Positions 5,664 to 43,190 of a stretch of DNA of 50,112 bases are shown here, in pieces. The stretch covers positions 1-50,112 of the forward strand of contig CAIZDL010000151.1 of the NCBI GenBank assembly GCA_903931735.1, in the 5' to 3' direction. Position 1 is the first letter of the stretch. Each line of letters opens with the position of its first letter. Source of the stretch: an uncultured Rhodospirillales bacterium. Lineage in GTDB: Bacteria > Pseudomonadota > Alphaproteobacteria > Azospirillales > Azospirillaceae. Under the pieces are notes generated by a model that was not told the DNA's origin, searched no databases, and saw only the letters and a program-made list of their open reading frames with translations. The translations under genes and the position numbers were made by a program.

Positions 5664-6640
5664 TCCTGCGGCTTTTGCTTCCGCTTCTTCTGCTGGTGTT
5701 GGGCAGCGGGGCAGGGGGCGCGGTTGCGGGCGAGCCTTTTGCGGTTAACGCCCTTGAATATCCCTGGAGCGCGATCGGCCGGCTTAATGTTGGCGGGCGC
5801 GGGCATTGCACCGGTGTGCTGGTGGGGGAGCGCCATGTTCTCACCGCGGCCCATTGTCTTTACGACAAACGGCAAAAGCGCTGGTTCCGGCCCGATGAGT
5901 TGCACTTTGTGGCCGGCTACCAGGGCAGCACCTTTCCGTTTCACGCGCGGGTCAAGGGGGCCACCCATGCCGACGATTATGGCTCACAGGCCCGGCCAGT
6001 CGCGGATAATGACTGGGGCCTGCTGGAGTTGGCGGCGCCAATTGGTCGCGGGGCGGGTTGGCTCGGTGTCTTGCCTCTAAGCGCCGCGACTCTGCCCACT
6101 TTGCGCCGGCCCGAGGTTGCGATCGTGCGGGCCGGTTACCGCGCCAACCGCGCCTATGTACTGACCATTGACCAAGGGTGCGAGCTTCGCGGTTTTTTTC
6201 AAAATAGCCGGTTGTTTATTCACGGCTGCGCGCCGGTTCAGGGCGATTCCGGCGGGCCGGTGTTGGCATTCGTGGATGGAGCGGTGCAGGTGATCGGCGT
6301 CACCACTCTTTTGCTATCCCGCTCGGGCGCGCTTTCCGGGGCGGCGATCTCAACGTCGGTTCTCACGCAAGGCCAGGAATGGCCCGTGGCGGCGGCGGAG
6401 ATCAAGGCCGAAGGGTTCACGCCCGCTCCTTTCGGCAACGCTCCGCCCCCCGGCGGTGCCGCCGCCTCCACTCCCGGAATGACGATAGCGCGGTTGTTGC
6501 GCATATCCATCGGTGATAGTTCTAAGAATGGCAACCGAGCACTGTCCTCAGCGATTGAAGCGGTTGAACACGCGCATGGGCTGCCGATTACCGGTGCGCC
6601 TTCACTCGGAGTGTTGGGGGTATTGCTCCGCGGGCGTTAG
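5639..6640 (+). CDS. Secreted trypsin-like (S1) serine protease
   Basis: This 333-residue exported protein has a clear signal peptide (residues 9-30, a leucine run ending in AGGAVAG) and a chymotrypsin-fold domain. The triad is His72 in LTAAHC, Asp125 in DNDWGLL and Ser204 in GDSGGP. Cys57/Cys73 and Cys181/Cys197 could form disulfides, which fits an extracytoplasmic location. No PDZ domain follows. The C-terminal part from about residue 260 is Ala/Pro-rich and unassigned. The ATG start lies inside the rlmB 3' end; earlier in-frame codons would spoil the signal peptide. It resembles the V8-like/glutamyl-endopeptidase group common in Alphaproteobacteria; the substrate is unknown. Confidence 0.85.
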   Translation: MGTRPQALILRLLLPLLLLVLGSGAGGAVAGEPFAVNALEYPWSAIGRLNVGGRGHCTGVLVGERHVLTAAHCLYDKRQKRWFRPDELHFVAGYQGSTFPFHARVKGATHADDYGSQARPVADNDWGLLELAAPIGRGAGWLGVLPLSAATLPTLRRPEVAIVRAGYRANRAYVLTIDQGCELRGFFQNSRLFIHGCAPVQGDSGGPVLAFVDGAVQVIGVTTLLLSRSGALSGAAISTSVLTQGQEWPVAAAEIKAEGFTPAPFGNAPPPGGAAASTPGMTIARLLRISIGDSSKNGNRALSSAIEAVEHAHGLPITGAPSLGVLGVLLRGR

Positions 6641-6689
6641 AGCGGATCATCGCTACGGGGTACATCCACCTTTTCGCGACCCGCTCTAA
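6637..6689 (+). repeat. Palindromic intergenic repeat, copy A
   Basis: The outer arms are TTAGAGCGG (6637-6645) and CCGCTCTAA (6681-6689), a perfect 9-bp inverted repeat. The interior matches the reverse complement of the copy at 7551-7603, with shared blocks GGGGT, CCAC, TTCGCGAC and CGCTCTA. About two thirds of aligned positions agree by eye. The left arm contains the stop codon of the protease gene. Confidence 0.65.
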
Positions 6690-6979
6690 GGCGCAGCTCT
6701 TAATTTCTTGCGCGCATTTCGGTTGCTTGATTCCTTTATGTCTAAAAACCCTGGACAGCAGGGTTTTGATGTGGTAGAGCTATTAGTTAACGGTGTCAGA
6801 AGACACTGTCGCTTTTGGAGAAGTCCAATGTCCGCAGACCCTAAGTCCGGCCAAGTGCTAGGCTTCGTCACCGGCAAGGCGCTCTCCCCGGCGTGGGGGG
6901 GTGCTACTCACGGCGCATCCCTGATATATCTCTGCTCCTTGGGAGCGGTTATGGCCCGCGAAAACGTGGGGGGTGTCGC
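6690..6979. other. Intergenic region upstream of the FlaG-like gene
   Basis: I see no convincing gene in these 290 bases. There is a hairpin at 6745-6767 (listed separately), a short GTGTC-AGAA-GACAC stem near 6794-6807, and a G7 run near 6895. A 92-codon frame on the plus strand overlaps the next start but has no recognisable protein features and no good start site. Confidence 0.5.
6745..6767 (+). terminator. Hairpin with flanking A/T runs
   Basis: AAAACCCTG and CAGGGTTTT form a perfect 9-bp stem around a 5-base loop. The A- and T-runs are part of the stem, which suits a bidirectional intrinsic terminator. It is 105 bases after the protease stop codon. Confidence 0.5.
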
Positions 6980-7396
6980 ATGGTAGACCTGAGCACAAGC
7001 ATCGGCATCACTCCGCACACCGCGGCTTATGCGGCCCCGACTCCGGCGCCAGCGCCAGCAGTCCCCGGGGCATCACAAGGTGTTCCACGAGTCGGCGCCG
7101 CCAATGGTTCGACCGCGCCCCCGACTCCGGCGGCTAGTCCCGCATCTGGGGCAACGCCCGCCGCGACGGCAGCCGCCGCCCGTCAGGCTCAAGGAGGAGC
7201 CGCTACCGCTACCGGAAAGCCCGAAAAGAGCGATATCACTGCCGGGTTCAACCCTTCGGTCACCATCGATCCCGATACTCACATCATGGTGATGACCATT
7301 CGCGCGCCGGACGGAGAGACCCTTCGTCAGATGCCGAACCAACATGAATTGGCCGCGTATAAGGCGAGCGCCGCCGAACAGAAGAAGTGTGTTTAG
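6980..7396 (+). CDS. FlaG-like protein with Ala/Pro-rich N-terminus
   Basis: This 138-residue protein has two parts. Residues 15-90 are low-complexity Ala/Pro/Thr, probably disordered. Residues about 95-138 (FNPSVTIDPDTHIMVMTIR, then GETLRQMPNQHELAAYK) follow the FlaG pattern of a two-strand hairpin, a (D/E)xxRQxP motif and a short helix. FlaG affects flagellar filament length in other bacteria. The match covers only the C-terminal motif, and no flagellar gene is near, so the function is tentative. The start has a G-rich sequence just upstream. The gene is bracketed by two copies of the palindromic repeat in inverted orientation, which suggests it may have moved as a unit. Confidence 0.55.
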   Translation: MVDLSTSIGITPHTAAYAAPTPAPAPAVPGASQGVPRVGAANGSTAPPTPAASPASGATPAATAAAARQAQGGAATATGKPEKSDITAGFNPSVTIDPDTHIMVMTIRAPDGETLRQMPNQHELAAYKASAAEQKKCV

Positions 7397-7550
7397 CGAG
7401 GCTCGCCTCCTGCTCCGAAAGGGGAAGGGGGCGGGCTTTTCGCGGTCGATTCCCGTCTTCTTGCTCAGGTTGCGGCCTTGCTTGGGCGCGGCCCAAAAGC
7501 GATTCGCTCCGGTGATTTCGCGGCGCGATTCGCTCCGTTGTTCCCGCCGC

Positions 7551-7603
7551 TAGAGCGAGTCGCGAAGGCGTGGGCTCACCCCAAGCGTGAAATCTGCTCT
7601 TAA
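7551..7603 (-). repeat. Palindromic intergenic repeat, copy B
   Basis: The ends are TAGAGC (7551) and GCTCTTAA (7596-7603). Reverse-complemented, it aligns with copy A over its full length and with copy C over about 38 bases. An A-rich tail (AAACAAAAAGTTAG) follows on the plus strand and joins it to the hairpin at 7612-7641; copy C has nearly the same tail. Confidence 0.65.
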
Positions 7604-7641
7604 AACAAAAAGTTAGAGCATGGATCGCACCATGCTCTAAC
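7602..7641 (-). terminator. Rho-independent terminator of etf-QO
   Basis: On the minus strand GTTAGAGCATGG pairs perfectly with CCATGCTCTAAC (12 bp, 6-base loop), and the stem is followed at once by a T-rich run (TTTTTGTTTT). It begins 8 bases after the etf-QO stop codon. The T-run is also the A-rich tail of the neighbouring repeat, so the terminator may derive from that element. Confidence 0.85.
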
Positions 7642-7649
7642 CCCGACGT

Positions 7650-9299
7650 TTACATGTTCGGATAATTCGGCCCGCCGCCGCCTTCCGGCACTGTCCAGTT
7701 GATGTTTTGCATCGGGTCTTTGATGTCGCACGTCTTGCAATGGACACAGTTGGCGGCGTTGATCTGGAGCCGGGGGCGTGAGCCGTCCGCCTCGGTGAAA
7801 AACTCGTAGACTCCCGCCGGGCAATAGCGGGCCTCCGGGCCGTCGTATACGGCGTAGTTGATTTTCACCGGCACCGTGTGATCGCGCAACTGAAGGTGGG
7901 CCGGTTGGTTTTCCTCGTGGTTGACGCTGGAAAAAGCAAGATTCGACAGCCGGTCGAACGTGATCACGCCATCGGGTTTGGGATAAGCGATCGGTTTGGA
8001 ATCAACCGCCTTTTTTAAGGTTTGGTGATCATGGTGCTGGAGATGCAGGGTATAGGGCGCCTTGCCGCGCCAGATAAAGGCATCGATCGCCGAGTGGGCA
8101 ATCCCCGCCACCAAGCCCCACTGGAACGCCGGGCGAATGTTGCGGGCGATCTGCAACTCCTGCCACAGCCACGTATGCTTGAGCCGGTTGGCATAGGCGA
8201 CGATTTCGGTTTCCACCGCCTCGGTGCGGAAATGATCAAAGATCGCCTCGGCCGCCGTCATCCCCGATTTCATCGCGGTGTGGGTGCCTTTGATCTTAGA
8301 GATATTCATGGTGCCGGCGCAGTCGCCGACCAGCATTCCGCCGGGGAAGGTCAACTTGGGGAGAGCCTGGATACCGCCCTCGATCAGCGCGCGCGCGCCA
8401 TAAGCAATGCGCCGCCCGCCTTCCAGCAATGGCCGCACCGCCGGATGAGTCTTGAAGCGCTGAAACTCCTCATAAGGAGAAAGATAGGGGTTCTGGTAAT
8501 CCAGCCCGATCACAAAGCCAATCGCAACCTGATTATTTTCAAGGTGATAGAGGAACGAGCCGCCATAAGTGCTGAAATCAACCGGCCAGCCGATGGAGTG
8601 GGAAACCCGCCCCGCTTTGTGCTTTGCGGGGTCAACCTCCCAGATTTCCTTAACGCCGAGCCCATAGGCTTGGGGGTCTGCGTCGCGGGCCAGGCCGAAC
8701 CGATCCATCACCACCTTGGTCATTGAACCCCGACAGCCCTCGGCAAACACGGTCTGACGGGCGCGCAACTCAACACCGGGGGTAAAGCGATCGGTCGGTG
8801 CGCCATCTTTGCCAATGCCCATGTCGCCGGTGGCGACGCCCTTGACCACTCCTGCTTCGTCGTAGAGCACTTCGGCCGCCGCGAATCCGGCATAAATTTC
8901 GACGCCCAGCGCCTCAGCCTGTTGCGCCAGCCAGCGGGCGAGCAACCCGACACTGGCGACATAGTTGCCCTTGTTGTGCATGGAGGGCGCGACCGGCAGG
9001 GGAATTTGCCAGCGCTTGGTCATGAAGTAGAAGCTATCCTCGCTCACCGGGGTGACTATCGGCGCGCCCTGGTTGCGCCAATCGGGGAGCAATTCATCAA
9101 GAGCCCTCGGCTCGATAACCGCGCCGGATAGAATATGAGCGCCGATCTCCGAGCCTTTTTCGAGAATGCAGACCCCAACCTCGTGACCATGCTCGGCCGC
9201 CAGTTGCTTAAGCCTGATCGCAGTGGCAAGCCCGGCCGGACCGCCACCGACGATCACGACATCGTACTCCATGACTTCCCGTTCGATAGTCCTCGACAT
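7650..9299 (-). CDS. Electron transfer flavoprotein-ubiquinone oxidoreductase
   Basis: This 549-residue inner-membrane flavoprotein passes electrons from ETF, and so from acyl-CoA and amino-acid dehydrogenases, to ubiquinone. The N-terminal FAD site is DVVIVGGGPAGLATAIRLKQ. The middle region has the FAD/ubiquinone-binding segments typical of the family (KEIWEV, SIGWPVDFSTYGGSFLYH, GDCAGTMN). The C-terminal [4Fe-4S] cysteines are in CPAGVYEF and CVHCKTC, with the conserved end QNINWTVPEGGGGPNYPNM. Length equals that of known ETF-QOs. The start has TTGAGG nearby, though a Met eight codons later is possible. It is a single gene with its own terminator; the etfAB genes are not in the window. Confidence 0.97.
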   Translation of the reverse strand: MSRTIEREVMEYDVVIVGGGPAGLATAIRLKQLAAEHGHEVGVCILEKGSEIGAHILSGAVIEPRALDELLPDWRNQGAPIVTPVSEDSFYFMTKRWQIPLPVAPSMHNKGNYVASVGLLARWLAQQAEALGVEIYAGFAAAEVLYDEAGVVKGVATGDMGIGKDGAPTDRFTPGVELRARQTVFAEGCRGSMTKVVMDRFGLARDADPQAYGLGVKEIWEVDPAKHKAGRVSHSIGWPVDFSTYGGSFLYHLENNQVAIGFVIGLDYQNPYLSPYEEFQRFKTHPAVRPLLEGGRRIAYGARALIEGGIQALPKLTFPGGMLVGDCAGTMNISKIKGTHTAMKSGMTAAEAIFDHFRTEAVETEIVAYANRLKHTWLWQELQIARNIRPAFQWGLVAGIAHSAIDAFIWRGKAPYTLHLQHHDHQTLKKAVDSKPIAYPKPDGVITFDRLSNLAFSSVNHEENQPAHLQLRDHTVPVKINYAVYDGPEARYCPAGVYEFFTEADGSRPRLQINAANCVHCKTCDIKDPMQNINWTVPEGGGGPNYPNM

Positions 9300-9361
9300 G
9301 CCTCAACCCCCTCGCCACCGGTTGGTTCGGACCAGATGTCCCGACCAGACGTAACGACATT

Positions 9362-9386
9362 ATACAAACTCCGGGCGGTTTTGTAT
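9362..9386. promoter_or_regulatory. Palindromic operator-like site upstream of etf-QO
   Basis: ATACAAA at 9362-9368 and TTTGTAT at 9380-9386 form a perfect 7-bp inverted repeat with an 11-base centre. It lies 63-87 bases upstream of the etf-QO start and 77-101 bases upstream of the uracil-DNA glycosylase start, between divergent genes. The spacing and symmetry suit a dimeric TetR- or GntR-type regulator. No regulator gene is adjacent. Confidence 0.4.
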
Positions 9387-9462
9387 CATCCGTATCCCGA
9401 TGCCCCAAGGCCAAAGCCCCAACCCTGAGATTTAACCATGACCAGCCATAGCTCGACCCGTC

Positions 9463-10272
9463 ATGCTCGACCAGAGTGAGATTATCGCGGCGCTTTGTTG
9501 GCAAGGGGAGATTGGCGTCGATGAGGCGCTGGACGATCAGCCTGCGGATTGGTCCAGCTTCACCGCTCGAAGCGGGACGGCCCAGCGCCCGGCCGCGCAG
9601 TCATCAGCGTTGGCGCCGGTGCCGACTCGGCCCCCCGCATCCAGTCGTCCCGTTATTTCCGATGCCCCGGTTCCAGGTTCGGCCGAGCTGCGCCAATCTC
9701 TTGCCGGGGTAACCGATTTGGCGGGGCTGAGGGCGGCACTCTCCCAGTTTGAGGACTGCTCTCTTAAGCATACCGCGATGACTCTGGTGTTTTCCGACGG
9801 CAACCCCGAAGCCCGGCTCATGCTGGTGGGAGACCCGCCGGGCGAAGACGAAGACCGGGCCGGATTGCCCTTTGCTGGCGCAAATGGCCGCCTGTTAGAT
9901 CGGATGTTGGCCGCGCTCGGGCTTGATCGAACCAAGGTTTACCTCACCAGCGTTCTGCCCTGGCGCCCGCCCGGCAACCGCAGTCCGACACACGCGGAGA
10001 TTGCTCTTTGCCTGCCCTTTATCGAGCGTCATATCGCGTTGGTCAAACCACAAGCCCTCGTGTTGTTTGGCAGCGTCGCCGCCAAGAGCTTGTTAGGTCG
10101 CTCCGAGGGACTTCCTCGTTTGCGTGGTCAATGGTTTGATTTTCGGCCACCCGGGACAACGCAAATACTACCGACGATGGCAACTTACCATCCCTCATAT
10201 TTGCTGAAATCTCCCCTTCATAAGCGGGAAGTCTGGCGCGATTTACTTATGATTAAGAGCAAGTTAACGTAG
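9463..10272 (+). CDS. Uracil-DNA glycosylase, family 4-like
   Basis: This base-excision-repair enzyme of 269 residues removes uracil from DNA. A variable Pro/Ala-rich N-terminus (to about residue 95) precedes the glycosylase fold. Motif A is LMLVGDPPGEDEDRAGLPFAG, with PFAG binding uracil. Motif B is HPSYLL near the C-terminus. WRPPGNRSPT matches the family 4 loop. Two oddities stand out. Motif A has GDPPG (residues 123-127) where family 4 normally has GEAPG or GEGPG. Only one of the four usual [4Fe-4S] cysteines (C99) is in place. Loss of the cluster cysteines is, as I recall, shared by alphaproteobacterial relatives. It is read divergently from etf-QO. Confidence 0.85.
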   Translation: MLDQSEIIAALCWQGEIGVDEALDDQPADWSSFTARSGTAQRPAAQSSALAPVPTRPPASSRPVISDAPVPGSAELRQSLAGVTDLAGLRAALSQFEDCSLKHTAMTLVFSDGNPEARLMLVGDPPGEDEDRAGLPFAGANGRLLDRMLAALGLDRTKVYLTSVLPWRPPGNRSPTHAEIALCLPFIERHIALVKPQALVLFGSVAAKSLLGRSEGLPRLRGQWFDFRPPGTTQILPTMATYHPSYLLKSPLHKREVWRDLLMIKSKLT

Positions 10273-10360
10273 ACAATCATTGTGCACCAAACGGCATCAC
10301 CTGTGATGCTGTTTGGACACATCGATTTTTTCCTGACCTTTGCCACTTGCCAAGAACGGC

Positions 10361-12385
10361 ATGTGGCGATATGTCGGCAAGATGGATGGAATTCGCCTCA
10401 TAACGAAAGCGCGTGGAGCGCGCACACGGTCATCGCCTTGGGGCGTGATGACGGCGGTTGTGCTCTGCGGTCTTTTGTCACCAGCAACGCCACCCCAACC
10501 GCAGGCGATGATCGGCGCGGCATTGCCGTCCGCAGCCCTCCGGCCTGCCACCAATGCGATTGCCGTCAACACGACGAATACGGTGGCCGACGGAGCGTCG
10601 CCGGCAGAAGGTATGTCTGACGACGATTTGATGCCGCCTCACCCCAAGGGGCCGGTGCAGGCCAGTGTTGCTCTTTTGGAAGCCGATTTGCCGGAATTGC
10701 GCGGCGTGCGCCTGGGCGACGACGATGCCCGCCGCTATCGGCATATTTTTGAGCTGCAAGCCCGCGCCGCCTGGGACGATGCCGACACCGAGATGACCGG
10801 CATTCATGACCGCCGGTTGATCGGGCAGGTGTTGCGCCAACGCTATCTTCACGCCGGCTCGGCCCGGGTTAGTTACGAGTCCCTGCGCGCCTGGCTCAAG
10901 CGCTACGGCGATCAGGCGGGGGCCGGGCGTATTCTTTCGTTAGCATCGGCTCGTCAGCCCAAAGGCGCGCCGCCTCCGCCCCAGCTCGCGGATATCGCCC
11001 GCCTTGATGGCGATCTTGAGGTTCAGGCAACATGGGGGTTTGGGGTTGCCCCCCGCTCGCGCTCAACCATGGGCCGGACCTCGGACGGCCCGGCCGTCGA
11101 GCGGATCGAGAATTTCCTGCACGCCGGGCGGCCTTCGGCGGCGCTGCGGGTGCTGGGAAACGACGAGGCCATCGGTGGCCTGAAAGACGCCGAGTTCGAT
11201 TCGCTCCGTGCCCGCATTGCTGCCGGGCTCTTTTACAGTGGCGACGCGCATACGGCGCTGGTTCTGGCCAAAGCCAGCGCGCACCGCTCTGGTAATGAGG
11301 TGCCGGGCGCGCACTGGATCGCCGGCCTCGCGGCATGGCGCACCGGAGATATCGAGACCGCCGGCCGCCATTTTTCAGCGATGGCTGCCACCAAATCGCT
11401 GGCGCCATGGGAGGCCGCCGCCGCCGCGTATTGGGCCGCGCTGGCCGAAAACCGCCTTGGCCACGCCGCGCTGGCCGATGCCTGGCTCAACCGCTCGGCC
11501 CGCTTCGATCGCACTTTTTATGGTCTGATCTCCTGCCGAACCCTTGGTCGCGACACGGTTTTTCAGTGGCAGGTGCCAACGCTGACCACCGCTCACCTCG
11601 CGGTTATCGCGGGCTCTCCCGGGGGCTCGCGTGCGCTTGGCTTACTCCAAATCGGCCAGTCGGACTTGGCGGAACAAGAGTTGCGCCGCGTTCATCCCCA
11701 CGACAACGCCCAGTTGGCCGAGGCCTTGGTGGCGCTGGCCGATGATGCCGGTTTGCCGGCGCTGGCTCTTCAGGTTGGCAACGCCGTTGCCGCACCCGAA
11801 GGCCGGACCTACGATGCCGCGCTCTTCCCCTTGCCCCACTGGACGCCGCTGGAAGGCTTCACCCTCGATCGGGCGTTGTTATTCGCGATCATGCGTCAGG
11901 AGTCGCGCTTTGAGCCGCGCTTGGTCAGCCATGCCGGGGCGACCGGGGTTATGCAGATCATGCCCGAGACCGCTCACGATGTCGCCAACGATGGCGCCGA
12001 TTATCAAGGCCTGGACCGACGACGCCTTTTCGATCCGCAATGGAACCTGTCGCTCGGGCAACGCTATATCGCCGGCCTGATGACCAGCCCTCGCGTTGCC
12101 GGCAATCTGGCCCACCTCACCGCCGCCTATAATGCCGGGCCATCGAACTTGCTCCGCTGGCGGCGCGATCTTGATGAAATATCCGATCCGCTGATGTTCA
12201 TCGAGAGCATTCCCATGCGCGAGACCCGCGACTATGTGCGCAAGGTTCTGACCAACTACTGGATCTATGAGACTCGTCTCGGCCAGCGCACTCCCACCCT
12301 GGATGCCCTTGCCACCGGCAATTGGCCGCTTTATACGCCGACCCCGGAGCAAACGACCCAGGTGGCCGATCGTGCAGGAAACTGA
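10361..12385 (+). CDS. Slt-type soluble lytic murein transglycosylase
   Basis: This large periplasmic transglycosylase of about 674 residues has the Slt70 layout. A signal-like hydrophobic stretch (VMTAVVLCGLL) comes first, then a long alpha-superhelical region with TPR-like helices. The C-terminal catalytic domain begins near residue 500 (ALLFAIMRQESRF, catalytic Glu about 514; GATGVMQIMPETA; AAYNAGPSNLLRW). It cleaves peptidoglycan between MurNAc and GlcNAc with 1,6-anhydro ring formation. The start is uncertain: a TTG seven codons upstream, this ATG, or an ATG seven codons downstream all read in frame, and none has a strong ribosome-binding site. The 3' end overlaps recX by 14 bases. Confidence 0.88.
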   Translation: MWRYVGKMDGIRLITKARGARTRSSPWGVMTAVVLCGLLSPATPPQPQAMIGAALPSAALRPATNAIAVNTTNTVADGASPAEGMSDDDLMPPHPKGPVQASVALLEADLPELRGVRLGDDDARRYRHIFELQARAAWDDADTEMTGIHDRRLIGQVLRQRYLHAGSARVSYESLRAWLKRYGDQAGAGRILSLASARQPKGAPPPPQLADIARLDGDLEVQATWGFGVAPRSRSTMGRTSDGPAVERIENFLHAGRPSAALRVLGNDEAIGGLKDAEFDSLRARIAAGLFYSGDAHTALVLAKASAHRSGNEVPGAHWIAGLAAWRTGDIETAGRHFSAMAATKSLAPWEAAAAAYWAALAENRLGHAALADAWLNRSARFDRTFYGLISCRTLGRDTVFQWQVPTLTTAHLAVIAGSPGGSRALGLLQIGQSDLAEQELRRVHPHDNAQLAEALVALADDAGLPALALQVGNAVAAPEGRTYDAALFPLPHWTPLEGFTLDRALLFAIMRQESRFEPRLVSHAGATGVMQIMPETAHDVANDGADYQGLDRRRLFDPQWNLSLGQRYIAGLMTSPRVAGNLAHLTAAYNAGPSNLLRWRRDLDEISDPLMFIESIPMRETRDYVRKVLTNYWIYETRLGQRTPTLDALATGNWPLYTPTPEQTTQVADRAGN

Positions 12386-40273: not shown

Positions 40274-40311
40274 TTGGTTGGCGGCGTCAGCGTTTCGACG
40301 GCGCCAACCAA
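40274..40311. terminator. Hairpin between eno and the convergent proline-rich gene
   Basis: A 15-bp stem with a single mismatch (TTGGTTGGCGGCGTC against GACGGCGCCAACCAA) closes an 8-base loop. It covers the last codons of the minus-strand gene and lies 14 bases after eno. No T-run follows on either strand, so bidirectional termination is likely but not certain. Confidence 0.6.
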
Positions 40312-40934
40312 TTCATAGCCTTGGCGGTGTGCGCAGGCGCGCGCACCGGCGGGGGCGATGGCTGTGTTGGGTGGGGCTGCTGTAAGAGTTGCTGCGGGCC
40401 TGGGTTTGATAACGCTGGGGTGAGTGGCGGATTGAACGGTGCCGGAGTCTGGCGCGTTAATCGTTGTTCAATCGCCTGGCGCTGCTCATGAGCGGGGGGC
40501 GGGGCAGGGGGCGGCATAACCGGCGCGCTTCTTGGTGGCAGCGACGGAGCCGTTGGCTGTCGTTCGGTAAATGAGCGCCGCAGCGTTTGCTCGATCAACT
40601 CGGCCGCCGGGACCTGGGGTTTGGGGTCTGGGGTCCGGCGCGCGATGGAGGTTTCCAGCCGGCGCGAAGCGTCGCGAATTTCGGTCAATGCCGCCATGGC
40701 ATCGCTTAACAGCGGTGATAATTTGGCCGAATCCTGGCTCTCGGTCGCGTCAAGAGCGCCCAAGCGCTGGCGCACCCGCTCAACTTCGTTTTCAATCAAT
40801 ATTTGGAGATCGGCCGTTCCGGTCAGGATTCGGGTGATTTCCTGGCGCAGGGATGAAATCTCGCACGCCTGCCGGAGCTGGTGAAAGCCAAAGGTGGGCG
40901 CCGATTTCCGATCGGCCGAATCATTTTGGGACAT
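40287..40934 (-). CDS. Hypothetical coiled-coil, proline-rich protein
   Basis: I do not recognise this 215-residue protein. Residues about 16-100 are charged and helical with heptad-like spacing (LRQEITRILTGTADLQILIENEVERVRQRLGALD; LTEIRDASRRLETSIARR), consistent with a coiled coil. Residues 101-205 are very rich in Pro, Gln and Ala (MPPPAPPP, PSPPPVRAP) and likely disordered. There is no signal peptide. The start may instead be an ATG 11 codons earlier, which adds MHGFRVLAVIA; neither has a strong ribosome-binding site. It is read away from the helix-turn-helix gene 215 bases upstream, and both end in proline-rich tails, so it may work with that gene and its ATPase. Confidence 0.6.
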   Translation of the reverse strand: MSQNDSADRKSAPTFGFHQLRQACEISSLRQEITRILTGTADLQILIENEVERVRQRLGALDATESQDSAKLSPLLSDAMAALTEIRDASRRLETSIARRTPDPKPQVPAAELIEQTLRRSFTERQPTAPSLPPRSAPVMPPPAPPPAHEQRQAIEQRLTRQTPAPFNPPLTPALSNPGPQQLLQQPHPTQPSPPPVRAPAHTAKAMNWLAPSKR

Positions 40935-41108
40935 GGCAATTACCGCTAAAACCCGGAAGCCATGCACGAGCCTCCGCCGGGGCTATCATAGCTGATTTCG
41001 CCTTTGCCATAGAAGACGGTCGTTGAGGGCGGGAATCCATTTGCTTGCGCTCGGTCGATAATTTATCTATGCGCACTGGAGCCTCGCGAAGCCATCGCAA
41101 TCCCAGCC

Positions 41109-41133
41109 GAACCAATTGGTTCAGATTGTGAAC
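41109..41133. promoter_or_regulatory. Interleaved palindromes, candidate operator
   Basis: GAACCAATTGGTTC (41109-41122) is a perfect 14-bp palindrome. It overlaps a second one, GTTCA-GATTG-TGAAC (41119-41133). Together they cover 25 bases that end 17 bases before the GTG start of the helix-turn-helix gene. This position would let a bound dimer block transcription or translation start, so autoregulation by that gene's product is a natural guess. Confidence 0.6.
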
Positions 41134-41149
41134 TATTATCGGAGCGTCG

Positions 41150-42292
41150 GTGTCGCTAAAACTGACGGTACTGTGGAAAGGGAGCAAATCGGCCAGCGCC
41201 TCGCCGCAGGCGTTGGAGGATATTGTTTCAAATAATGTCGTTCAGGGCGTAATTCAGCAATCGGGGCGGGCAGCGGCTGTGACGATCAAACGCGATGATC
41301 TCGAAAAGTTATTGGCAACACGGACCGGTGGTGCGCGGAGTGCGCTTCAATCGGTTAAGGACGCGTACGCCGAAATTGGTTTGATGCGGGAAGAGGGCGT
41401 TTCCTGGGCCGAAATTGCCGAATTGCTGGGGCAGAACGGCGCGGTTGGTCGCGACGGGAAGCCTTTTGCTGCGGCGACGGTCCGGGCGGCATTCTTTCTG
41501 GTTGGCGCCGAGGTTCGCCAGGGGCAGGCCGAGGGTGAGGATGTTCCGCCCGATTCGTTTGCCGAGCCGGCAGCGATCAAACCTGTCGTGGTCGCCAAGG
41601 CGCAGACGGACGAGACTGAGAGCGCGTCGGGCTATGAGCCGGCCGAGTTGCCGCCCTTGCCCCCTCTCAGGTCCAGCGCGGCTTGTCTCGAGTCTGAGCC
41701 CATGAGTGCGCTCGATGTCCCCAAAGTCGTCGAGTCGGCTCAAATTGTGGAAAATGCGGTGGTGGAAGACGTGGTTGAGACACCGATCGCGGTTACCATC
41801 GCCGAATTGGTGCCCGATGACGAAGCAGCAGCTCTTGTTATCTCTGAGCCCGAACCCGAACGGGAGCCTGAGCCCGTTTTTGTTCGCGAGCCAAAGCCAG
41901 AGAGCGTCCGGCCAGCCCCGCCAATAGCGGCCCGCCCGGCCCCCTCTGCGCCGCCCCCCCTCCCGTCTGCGCCCCCCCCTCGCGCGTCTGTGAACGACAT
42001 GTGGTTGCTACGGCCGCTCAGTGAGCCGGTGAAGGAATGTTTGCCGAAAGACGAATCGGCGCCTTCGGTTGTTCGCCGGGTGGAGCCACCGCCGATTGTA
42101 AAACCCGCAGCGGCTCCCGCTCCGGTTCGCGTCGCACCGCCACCACCACCGTTCGTGCCCGTGGCTCCGGCGCCAGTCCCCGTTACTCCGCCGGCTGCGG
42201 TGCCCGAAAGACCCCGGGACAAGAGTTTATTTACACACGAAAGCGCGATGAGCTACGACTGGTGGACGCGGCGCATTGATAGCTCGACGTGA
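41150..42292 (+). CDS. Helix-turn-helix protein with long proline-rich tail
   Basis: This 380-residue protein of unknown function has three parts. Residues 1-65 are a mixed basic/acidic start (MSLKLTVLWKGSKS). Residues about 68-118 resemble a small helix-turn-helix module (VKDAYAEIGLMREEGVSWAEIAELL, then GKPFAAATVRAAFF). This pattern is seen in plasmid TraK/StbA/MobC-like DNA-binding proteins: a helix, a G-hS-x-x-x-I turn, then a dGkpft..tlr helix. Residues 140-375 are acidic then strongly Pro-rich (APSAPPPLPSAPPP, PVRVAPPPPPFVPVAP), ending in a Trp-containing tail (SYDWWTRRIDSS). The start is GTG with GGAG eight bases upstream. Runs of seven and eight C occur in the proline-rich part. Confidence 0.6.
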   Translation: MSLKLTVLWKGSKSASASPQALEDIVSNNVVQGVIQQSGRAAAVTIKRDDLEKLLATRTGGARSALQSVKDAYAEIGLMREEGVSWAEIAELLGQNGAVGRDGKPFAAATVRAAFFLVGAEVRQGQAEGEDVPPDSFAEPAAIKPVVVAKAQTDETESASGYEPAELPPLPPLRSSAACLESEPMSALDVPKVVESAQIVENAVVEDVVETPIAVTIAELVPDDEAAALVISEPEPEREPEPVFVREPKPESVRPAPPIAARPAPSAPPPLPSAPPPRASVNDMWLLRPLSEPVKECLPKDESAPSVVRRVEPPPIVKPAAAPAPVRVAPPPPPFVPVAPAPVPVTPPAAVPERPRDKSLFTHESAMSYDWWTRRIDSST

Positions 42293-42368
42293 CCATACCA
42301 ATTGCGCTAATAAAAATCTTACAAGATGCCGCGCAAGGACGACGGAAACATTTGAAAGGCTTCATCCC

Positions 42369-43190
42369 ATGCTTGGTTCGATACTTGTCCTGAATGATCG
42401 CGGGGGTGTGGGCAAGACGTTGCTGTCGCACCACCTCCTCGCCACCGCGATGCTGGAGGGGCTGGCCCTGCGCGTTGTCGAGTACGAGGTTAATGAACGT
42501 CTTGCTCGGCTGTTTGGTCCGGAAGTGGTGGAACATCGGCGAATTTCGCAGGATTTCGTCAACTTGATGGGGTCCGGCGGCGACGGGTTCTTTGAGTTCT
42601 GGGATAATATTGGCCCGGAACTTCAACGTGGCGGGCGGTTGTTTGATTTTGGCGGTAATATCAGTCAGTGGTTCTTCAATTGGGCCGAAGTTTCTGGCTT
42701 TGATTACTATGTCGGCGATGGCTCGCGCCTAGTGTTCATGGTGCCGGTCACTGTCGATCTCGCCTCCCTTCAAACCGGAATGGCAACGTTGGAGCGTATC
42801 GCGGCTATTGCGCCCGGAGCCAAGCGGGTTTTGGTCGAAAATGGCTTCTCCGGGTCGTTCTCTCAGCTTGAGGACACTCATTACGCCCGCCGCAAGGCGG
42901 AAATGGTCGAGCGTGAGAATGTTGCGGTGATCACCATGCCGGCCTGCACCGCGCCGGCTTGGGCGCGTTTGACCGGACATCGGTTGGATCAAATCGCGAC
43001 CATGACTCGTGAGGATTTGGTGAAGCTCGGTATGTCACCGCCGGTTGCATCGCGGTCGCTGATCGTGATTCATGATTGGTTGCGCTCGATTCGCCAGCAG
43101 TTGACCCCCTATCTCGCCGATGCTTTCCGTTCGACCCCCCCCGGTGCTGCGACGCGCACCGGCAAAGCCGGGCGGCAAGCGGTGGTTTGA
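42369..43190 (+). CDS. ParA/StbB/TraL-like P-loop ATPase
   Basis: This 273-residue protein has a deviant Walker A loop, NDRGGVGKT at residues 9-17. In ParA/MinD the loop begins with a signature lysine, here Arg11. The next strand ends VEYEVNERL (residues 37-45) where ParA has VDLDPQ and StbB/TraL has VDTDPVN; both Asp are Glu, but Asn42 is kept. The Walker B-like strand is LFDFGGN (Asp93). The remainder fits a SIMIBI fold. It lies 76 bases after the helix-turn-helix gene, on the same strand. Partition, transfer or polar positioning are plausible roles; none is shown. No ParB or centromere-like repeat is seen beyond the palindromes upstream. Confidence 0.65.
   Translation: MLGSILVLNDRGGVGKTLLSHHLLATAMLEGLALRVVEYEVNERLARLFGPEVVEHRRISQDFVNLMGSGGDGFFEFWDNIGPELQRGGRLFDFGGNISQWFFNWAEVSGFDYYVGDGSRLVFMVPVTVDLASLQTGMATLERIAAIAPGAKRVLVENGFSGSFSQLEDTHYARRKAEMVERENVAVITMPACTAPAWARLTGHRLDQIATMTREDLVKLGMSPPVASRSLIVIHDWLRSIRQQLTPYLADAFRSTPPGAATRTGKAGRQAVV

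Follow-up and report, generated by a model that had tools for sequence, protein, structure and literature searches.

The window, a stretch of 50,112 nucleotides from a metagenome-assembled genome of the Azospirillaceae (G000), carries three linked genes for a helix-turn-helix (HTH) protein, a P-loop ATPase and a coiled-coil, proline-rich protein, which are best explained as a domesticated StbA/StbB-type module that would anchor or position a chromosomal site, or control its own promoter. The more specific reading, that this chromosomal module anchors or positions a chromosomal locus with the coiled-coil protein as its adaptor, is put forward tentatively, at somewhat below an even chance. The original prediction was largely right and is partly supported here; the relation to TraK and the oriT-like layout that it also proposed did not hold.

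Gene structure, distribution and chromosomal location

The coiled-coil and proline-rich protein (215 amino acids) is encoded on the minus strand at 40287..40934, from an ATG at 40934 to its end at 40287. Across the divergent regulatory region (40935..41278), the plus strand carries the HTH gene (41279..42292; 337 amino acids), the product of which combines a putative StbA-like DNA-binding domain at about residues 20-84 with a long proline-rich arm, and contains the C-terminal motif AMSYDWWTRR (plus strand, 42245..42289). The gene for the P-loop ATPase, assigned below to the StbB/TraL group, follows on the same strand (42369..43190; 273 amino acids; ATG at 42369), and its Shine-Dalgarno sequence GAAAGG (42354..42359) ends nine bases before the ATG. 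The ATPase contains a Walker A motif, NDRGGVGKT (42393-42419), in which Arg replaces the signature Lys of ParA/MinD, and a Walker-B-like motif, DFGGN (42645-42659). RGGVGKT, with Arg at the position of the signature Lys, was found in 20/20 ATPase orthologs.

The HTH gene was found to start at the GTG at 41279 and not at the GTG at 41150, because locus L023 has an in-frame stop within the aligned stretch upstream of this start, the Azospirillum orthologs begin at the equivalent GTG, and the substitutions in 41150-41281 follow a non-coding-like pattern. Differences between the window and locus L021 at the three codon positions were 9/6/12 in that stretch, 9/3/39 in the HTH domain and 15/1/84 in the ATPase. 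The spacer is therefore 344 bases long, not the 215 originally given, and all three predicted open reading frames are present around it. The ATPase shares 79-96% identity with 19 orthologs, and its codon differences from L021 were 92 synonymous and 3 non-synonymous, which indicates a real gene under strong purifying selection. Scans of the three proteins against Pfam, NCBIfam, PHROGs and PADLOC returned no family apart from P-loop fragments, and a consensus promoter and terminator scan of the window found nothing.

The HTH domain and the ATPase ortholog coincided in 48 of 82 genomes of the family, with a co-occurrence of 48/48. The pair was present in 43/45 genomes of genus g11 (Azospirillum), in 4/5 of the window's genus and in the one g8 genome, and was found in none of the ten other genera (of 13). 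All three genes were missing from G004, G085 and G094, though their genera otherwise carry the module; these are either natural knock-outs or assembly gaps. Since the pair is absent from 10/13 genera, and from two genomes of the Azospirillum genus and one of the window's own, it is not a universal requirement. The coiled-coil gene lies beside the pair in 46 of the 48 genomes and is missing from G001 and G003, so the expectation that the three genes are kept together in relatives was borne out. Orthologs were restricted to Azospirillum, nearby metagenome-assembled genomes and one strain filed as Roseomonas. The locus of this strain ('Roseomonas genomospecies 6' ATCC 49961; L047) is of the A. 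brasilense type and groups inside Azospirillum with the A. brasilense set, and the strain is probably misnamed. In one genome (G066:C1:2620768-2621572), the ATPase frame is in two pieces near its C-terminal part, a probable frameshift or sequencing error.

The flanks vary between loci, with eno and MarR/NlpC, ssb, murJ or other genes, and thus the gene group is conserved and its neighbourhood is not. The eno/MarR setting described for the window was seen only there and in its nearest relatives, and MarR, eno and NlpC were rejected as parts of the module. The locus lies on the main chromosome: its contig also carries rsmG in 11/13 genomes, and no ortholog was found among 72,556 plasmid records. 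The distance between the locus and rsmG, calculated from coordinates, was 0.39-0.49 of the chromosome in 10/11 genomes and 0.29 in G071. GC skew placed the origin near rsmG in the three genomes analysed, and agreed with a terminus-proximal location in G061 and G078 and not in G071. The terminus-proximal location in 10/11 genomes is thus suggestive, and may reflect inherited synteny.

Relationships of the ATPase and the HTH protein to plasmid systems

Profile comparisons (hhalign) related the ATPase to proteins of plasmid transfer systems well beyond the P-loop. The family profile matched ATPases of MobF plasmids with 99.5% probability over 242 columns and StbB with 95% over 123 columns, and also aligned over the whole length with two other chromosomal groups (PAR1 and PAR2). 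TraL was matched by a pooled ATPase profile (96.8% over 149 columns), and over 17 columns only by the family's own profile. VirC1 aligned over 46 columns with the family profile and over 182 columns, at 97.0%, with the pooled one, and is therefore not clearly more distant than TraL; the groups compared are small (1-20 sequences), which makes this ranking of relatives indicative. These results support that the ATPase belongs to a broad StbB/TraL-type group, as had been proposed. It scored 15.2 bits, at the P-loop only, against the NCBIfam StbB family NF041292, which has a curated cut-off of 200 bits. Assignment to ParA/MipZ was rejected: the matches were short, covering 35-36 columns with the family profile and 50-61 with the pooled profile around Walker A, and the KGG.GK[ST] signature is absent.

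The evidence for the HTH protein is consistent with a relationship to StbA. In a Foldseek search of the PDB, its model (core pLDDT about 85-92) matched best, though weakly, the DNA-binding domain of R388 StbA (7pc1; rmsd 2.1, TMt 0.58, E 2.0, probability 0.60), and its profile matched StbA with 53% probability. The profile probability was 0.89% for TraK and under 1% for MarR, and no Pfam family was matched (TraK is PF17273, DUF5338). Of the TraK/StbA-like identity first suggested, the StbA half thus agrees with these searches and the TraK half was rejected. Two other candidates were discarded as well. The match to a PHROG 'transposase' (E 6e-4) came from a sequence extended too far at its N-terminus and spans a generic HTH, and the PDB sequence match to BurrH, in which no single stretch passes alone, looks like repeat matching.

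TraK and TraL are plasmid stability and transfer factors of IncP plasmids, and share with the locus an HTH-ATPase pair; the HTH protein here is not recognisably TraK, and TraL is reached mainly through the pooled profile. StbA and StbB are likewise known as stability and transfer factors of R388, in which StbA binds the stbDRs and maintains an even distribution of the plasmid, and transfer requires StbB only in the presence of StbA (PMC3098194). The module resembles stbABC of R388 in the order of an HTH gene followed by a gene for a profile-related P-loop ATPase, and in the weak structural match to StbA. Unlike the R388 genes, it is chromosomal, lacks stbDR iterons, a relaxase and a coupling protein, encodes a long proline-rich arm, is fused in Azospirillum, and has the divergent coiled-coil gene in place of stbC. 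The ATPases of the MobF plasmids AZO_p1 (Azospirillum lipoferum) and pMaqPC3 (Methylobacterium aquaticum) match over their full length in profile comparison, whereas they are only 26-27% identical and lie near MobF relaxase genes.

These plasmid relatives raise the question of whether the locus is a mobilisation module, either still active or a remnant, that belongs to an integrated conjugative element. One distant ATPase homolog lies between an HTH-like open reading frame and genes for a T4CP and MobF (L056), and another lies near a MobF-like open reading frame (L054). However, no relaxase or coupling gene was found near the locus in the window, as originally noted, and none recurs near the orthologs; the linkage to oriT and relaxase and the plasmid location that characterise StbAB and TraKL were not found for this family, which occupies chromosomal contigs. 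Together with the strong purifying selection and the vertical pattern within Azospirillum, this makes a mobilisation module highly improbable.

Other relatives of the ATPase were observed in the family. The genome of the window encodes a second chromosomal StbB-like ATPase (NGKGGVGKS; L057, G000:C71, about 6465-10680). Downstream of it lie genes for an uncharacterised protein, a putative membrane protein and a ParA-like ATPase, and this set recurs in G001 and G004 (L063 and L061). Other genera of the family carry a third chromosomal group, with the motif AKTGGQGKT and no Pfam match (L064-L067, L069 and L071); in several of these loci, a MoaB-like and an FtsE-like ABC gene lie nearby. A further relative with a C-terminal extension (L058, G013:C163, 8620-9885) lies a few kb from open reading frames resembling cellulose synthase.

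HTH-ATPase fusion and the divergent promoter

The HTH and ATPase sequences form one continuous open reading frame in 29/29 Azospirillum loci read (L025-L053), joined by a variable linker rich in Ala, Pro and Glu, and are separate genes in the window and in L021-L024. The fused sequences group together in a single clade (support 94/99). All 33 orthologs retain the GAAAGG of the ATPase, even where it lies inside the fused frame. The codons ahead of the ATPase start were AAA GGC GAT in 29/29 fusions, with CGC in 27, although AAA makes up 14% of Lys codons and GAT 30% of Asp codons. Such frozen minority codons are strong evidence of nucleotide-level constraint on a ribosome-binding site within the fused gene, which is not proof because synonymous sites of the ATPase coding sequence are themselves well conserved (mean homozygosity 0.78). 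From the retained ribosome-binding site, two products are predicted: a long, DNA-anchored fusion and a free ATPase from the internal start. The DW(W)TRR tail of the HTH protein, found in the unfused relatives L021-L024, is absent from all 29 fused orthologs, and its loss on fusion would fit a tail that once held the ATPase.

The StbB-group ATPase would thus work with the HTH protein, covalently in Azospirillum through the fusion, and in the unfused species as a complex, possibly formed through the DW(W)TRR tail. One reading of the fusion is that the Azospirillum lineage domesticated a StbA/StbB pair of the plasmid type, with ParB-like and ParA-like parts placed in one polypeptide and supplemented by free ATPase from the internal start, and that this system now positions a chromosomal locus. 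Taken as a whole, we regard this scenario as rather unlikely.

In the divergent region, a perfect palindrome GAACCAATTGGTTC (41109-41122) is followed by AACTATTAT (together 41109..41139, plus strand). Alignment of 28 Azospirillum promoters revealed a shared arrangement TTGGAAACCGTTTGCGC-N9-GCTTGTACTATTTTT, and the AACTATTAT of the window is the counterpart of the Azospirillum element GCTTGTACTATTTTT. The operator-like TTGGAAACCGTTTGCGC occurs as one exact copy per genome, at this promoter. The exact 17-mer was found only there in 7/8 genomes, and in the eighth the copy at the locus has two mismatches. With two mismatches allowed, there were 1-3 matches per genome, near the control level outside the locus, and a dispersed centromere or regulon motif was therefore rejected. 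Repeats resembling stbDRs were found upstream in none of the window, L042, L026 and L036, and the same tool detected the iterons of R388 as a positive control, which speaks against the oriT-like layout once suggested. With a single operator-like copy and no stbDR-like direct repeats, the site does not look like a centromere, which counts against positioning.

The main rival explanation is a transcription switch, in which an autoregulatory HTH protein acts under its ATPase, in the manner of FleQ and FleN, on the divergent promoter and possibly also on a small regulon, and is tied in Azospirillum to a single-domain response regulator. It agrees with the one operator-like element in the module's own promoter, and with a same-strand receiver gene (PF00072) immediately downstream of the coiled-coil gene at 26 Azospirillum loci; a stand-alone receiver gene also lies near the HTH gene in L023. 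The best folds for the ATPase model were FlhG, FleN and MinD, in a model too poor for fold claims (pLDDT 63). However, the receiver gene is unlinked in the window, L021, L022 and L024, and the coiled-coil, proline-rich partner and the kinship of the ATPase with plasmid transfer proteins point to a spatial function. We consider such a switch possible, if somewhat doubtful.

The coiled-coil protein and a possible positioning role

The coiled-coil protein matched no Pfam or NCBIfam family, and has a conserved N-terminal motif FH.LRQA.EIS..R and a conserved C-terminal motif [DN]WL.P.(K/R)R, in which Trp-Leu is kept. The proteins that partner ParA/MinD ATPases vary enormously and link orphan ATPases to their cargo, and the genes of such ATPases are often near cargo loci (PMC10241942). 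In carboxysome positioning by McdA/McdB, a ParA/MinD-type ATPase works with a poorly conserved adaptor, McdB, the invariant C-terminal Trp of which binds its cargo (PMC11321042). The likeness to the present locus is architectural only, and no microcompartment genes were seen nearby. By this analogy, the coiled-coil protein, with its proline-rich arms and C-terminal Trp, may be an adaptor to a cargo or partner.

The same McdB-like build would suit positioning of a protein cargo, such as a pole, a chemoreceptor array or a secretion machine, with the HTH domain only as an autoregulator and the coiled-coil protein carrying the cargo. No constant cargo gene was found among the neighbours, however, and in two genomes the pair is found but the coiled-coil gene is not, which leaves this alternative unlikely.

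For the preferred reading of a module that anchors or positions a chromosomal locus, the HTH protein would bind a site in its own divergent promoter, and the ATPase, by dimerising on DNA or membrane in a nucleotide-dependent manner, would then hold or place the bound locus, with the coiled-coil protein as adaptor. Such a partition or positioning role is drawn by analogy with the plasmid and McdA/McdB systems.

In Azospirillum and its close relatives, a device for plasmid positioning may thus have taken on a housekeeping role. If so, the chromosomal, strongly conserved and naturally fused version would mean that the two StbA/StbB-type proteins function as a single unit. From the nested start, a simple design is predicted, in which the ratio of anchored to free ATPase exerts control. 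Azospirillum would offer a tractable, non-pathogenic host in which to ask what a StbB-type ATPase does without conjugation.
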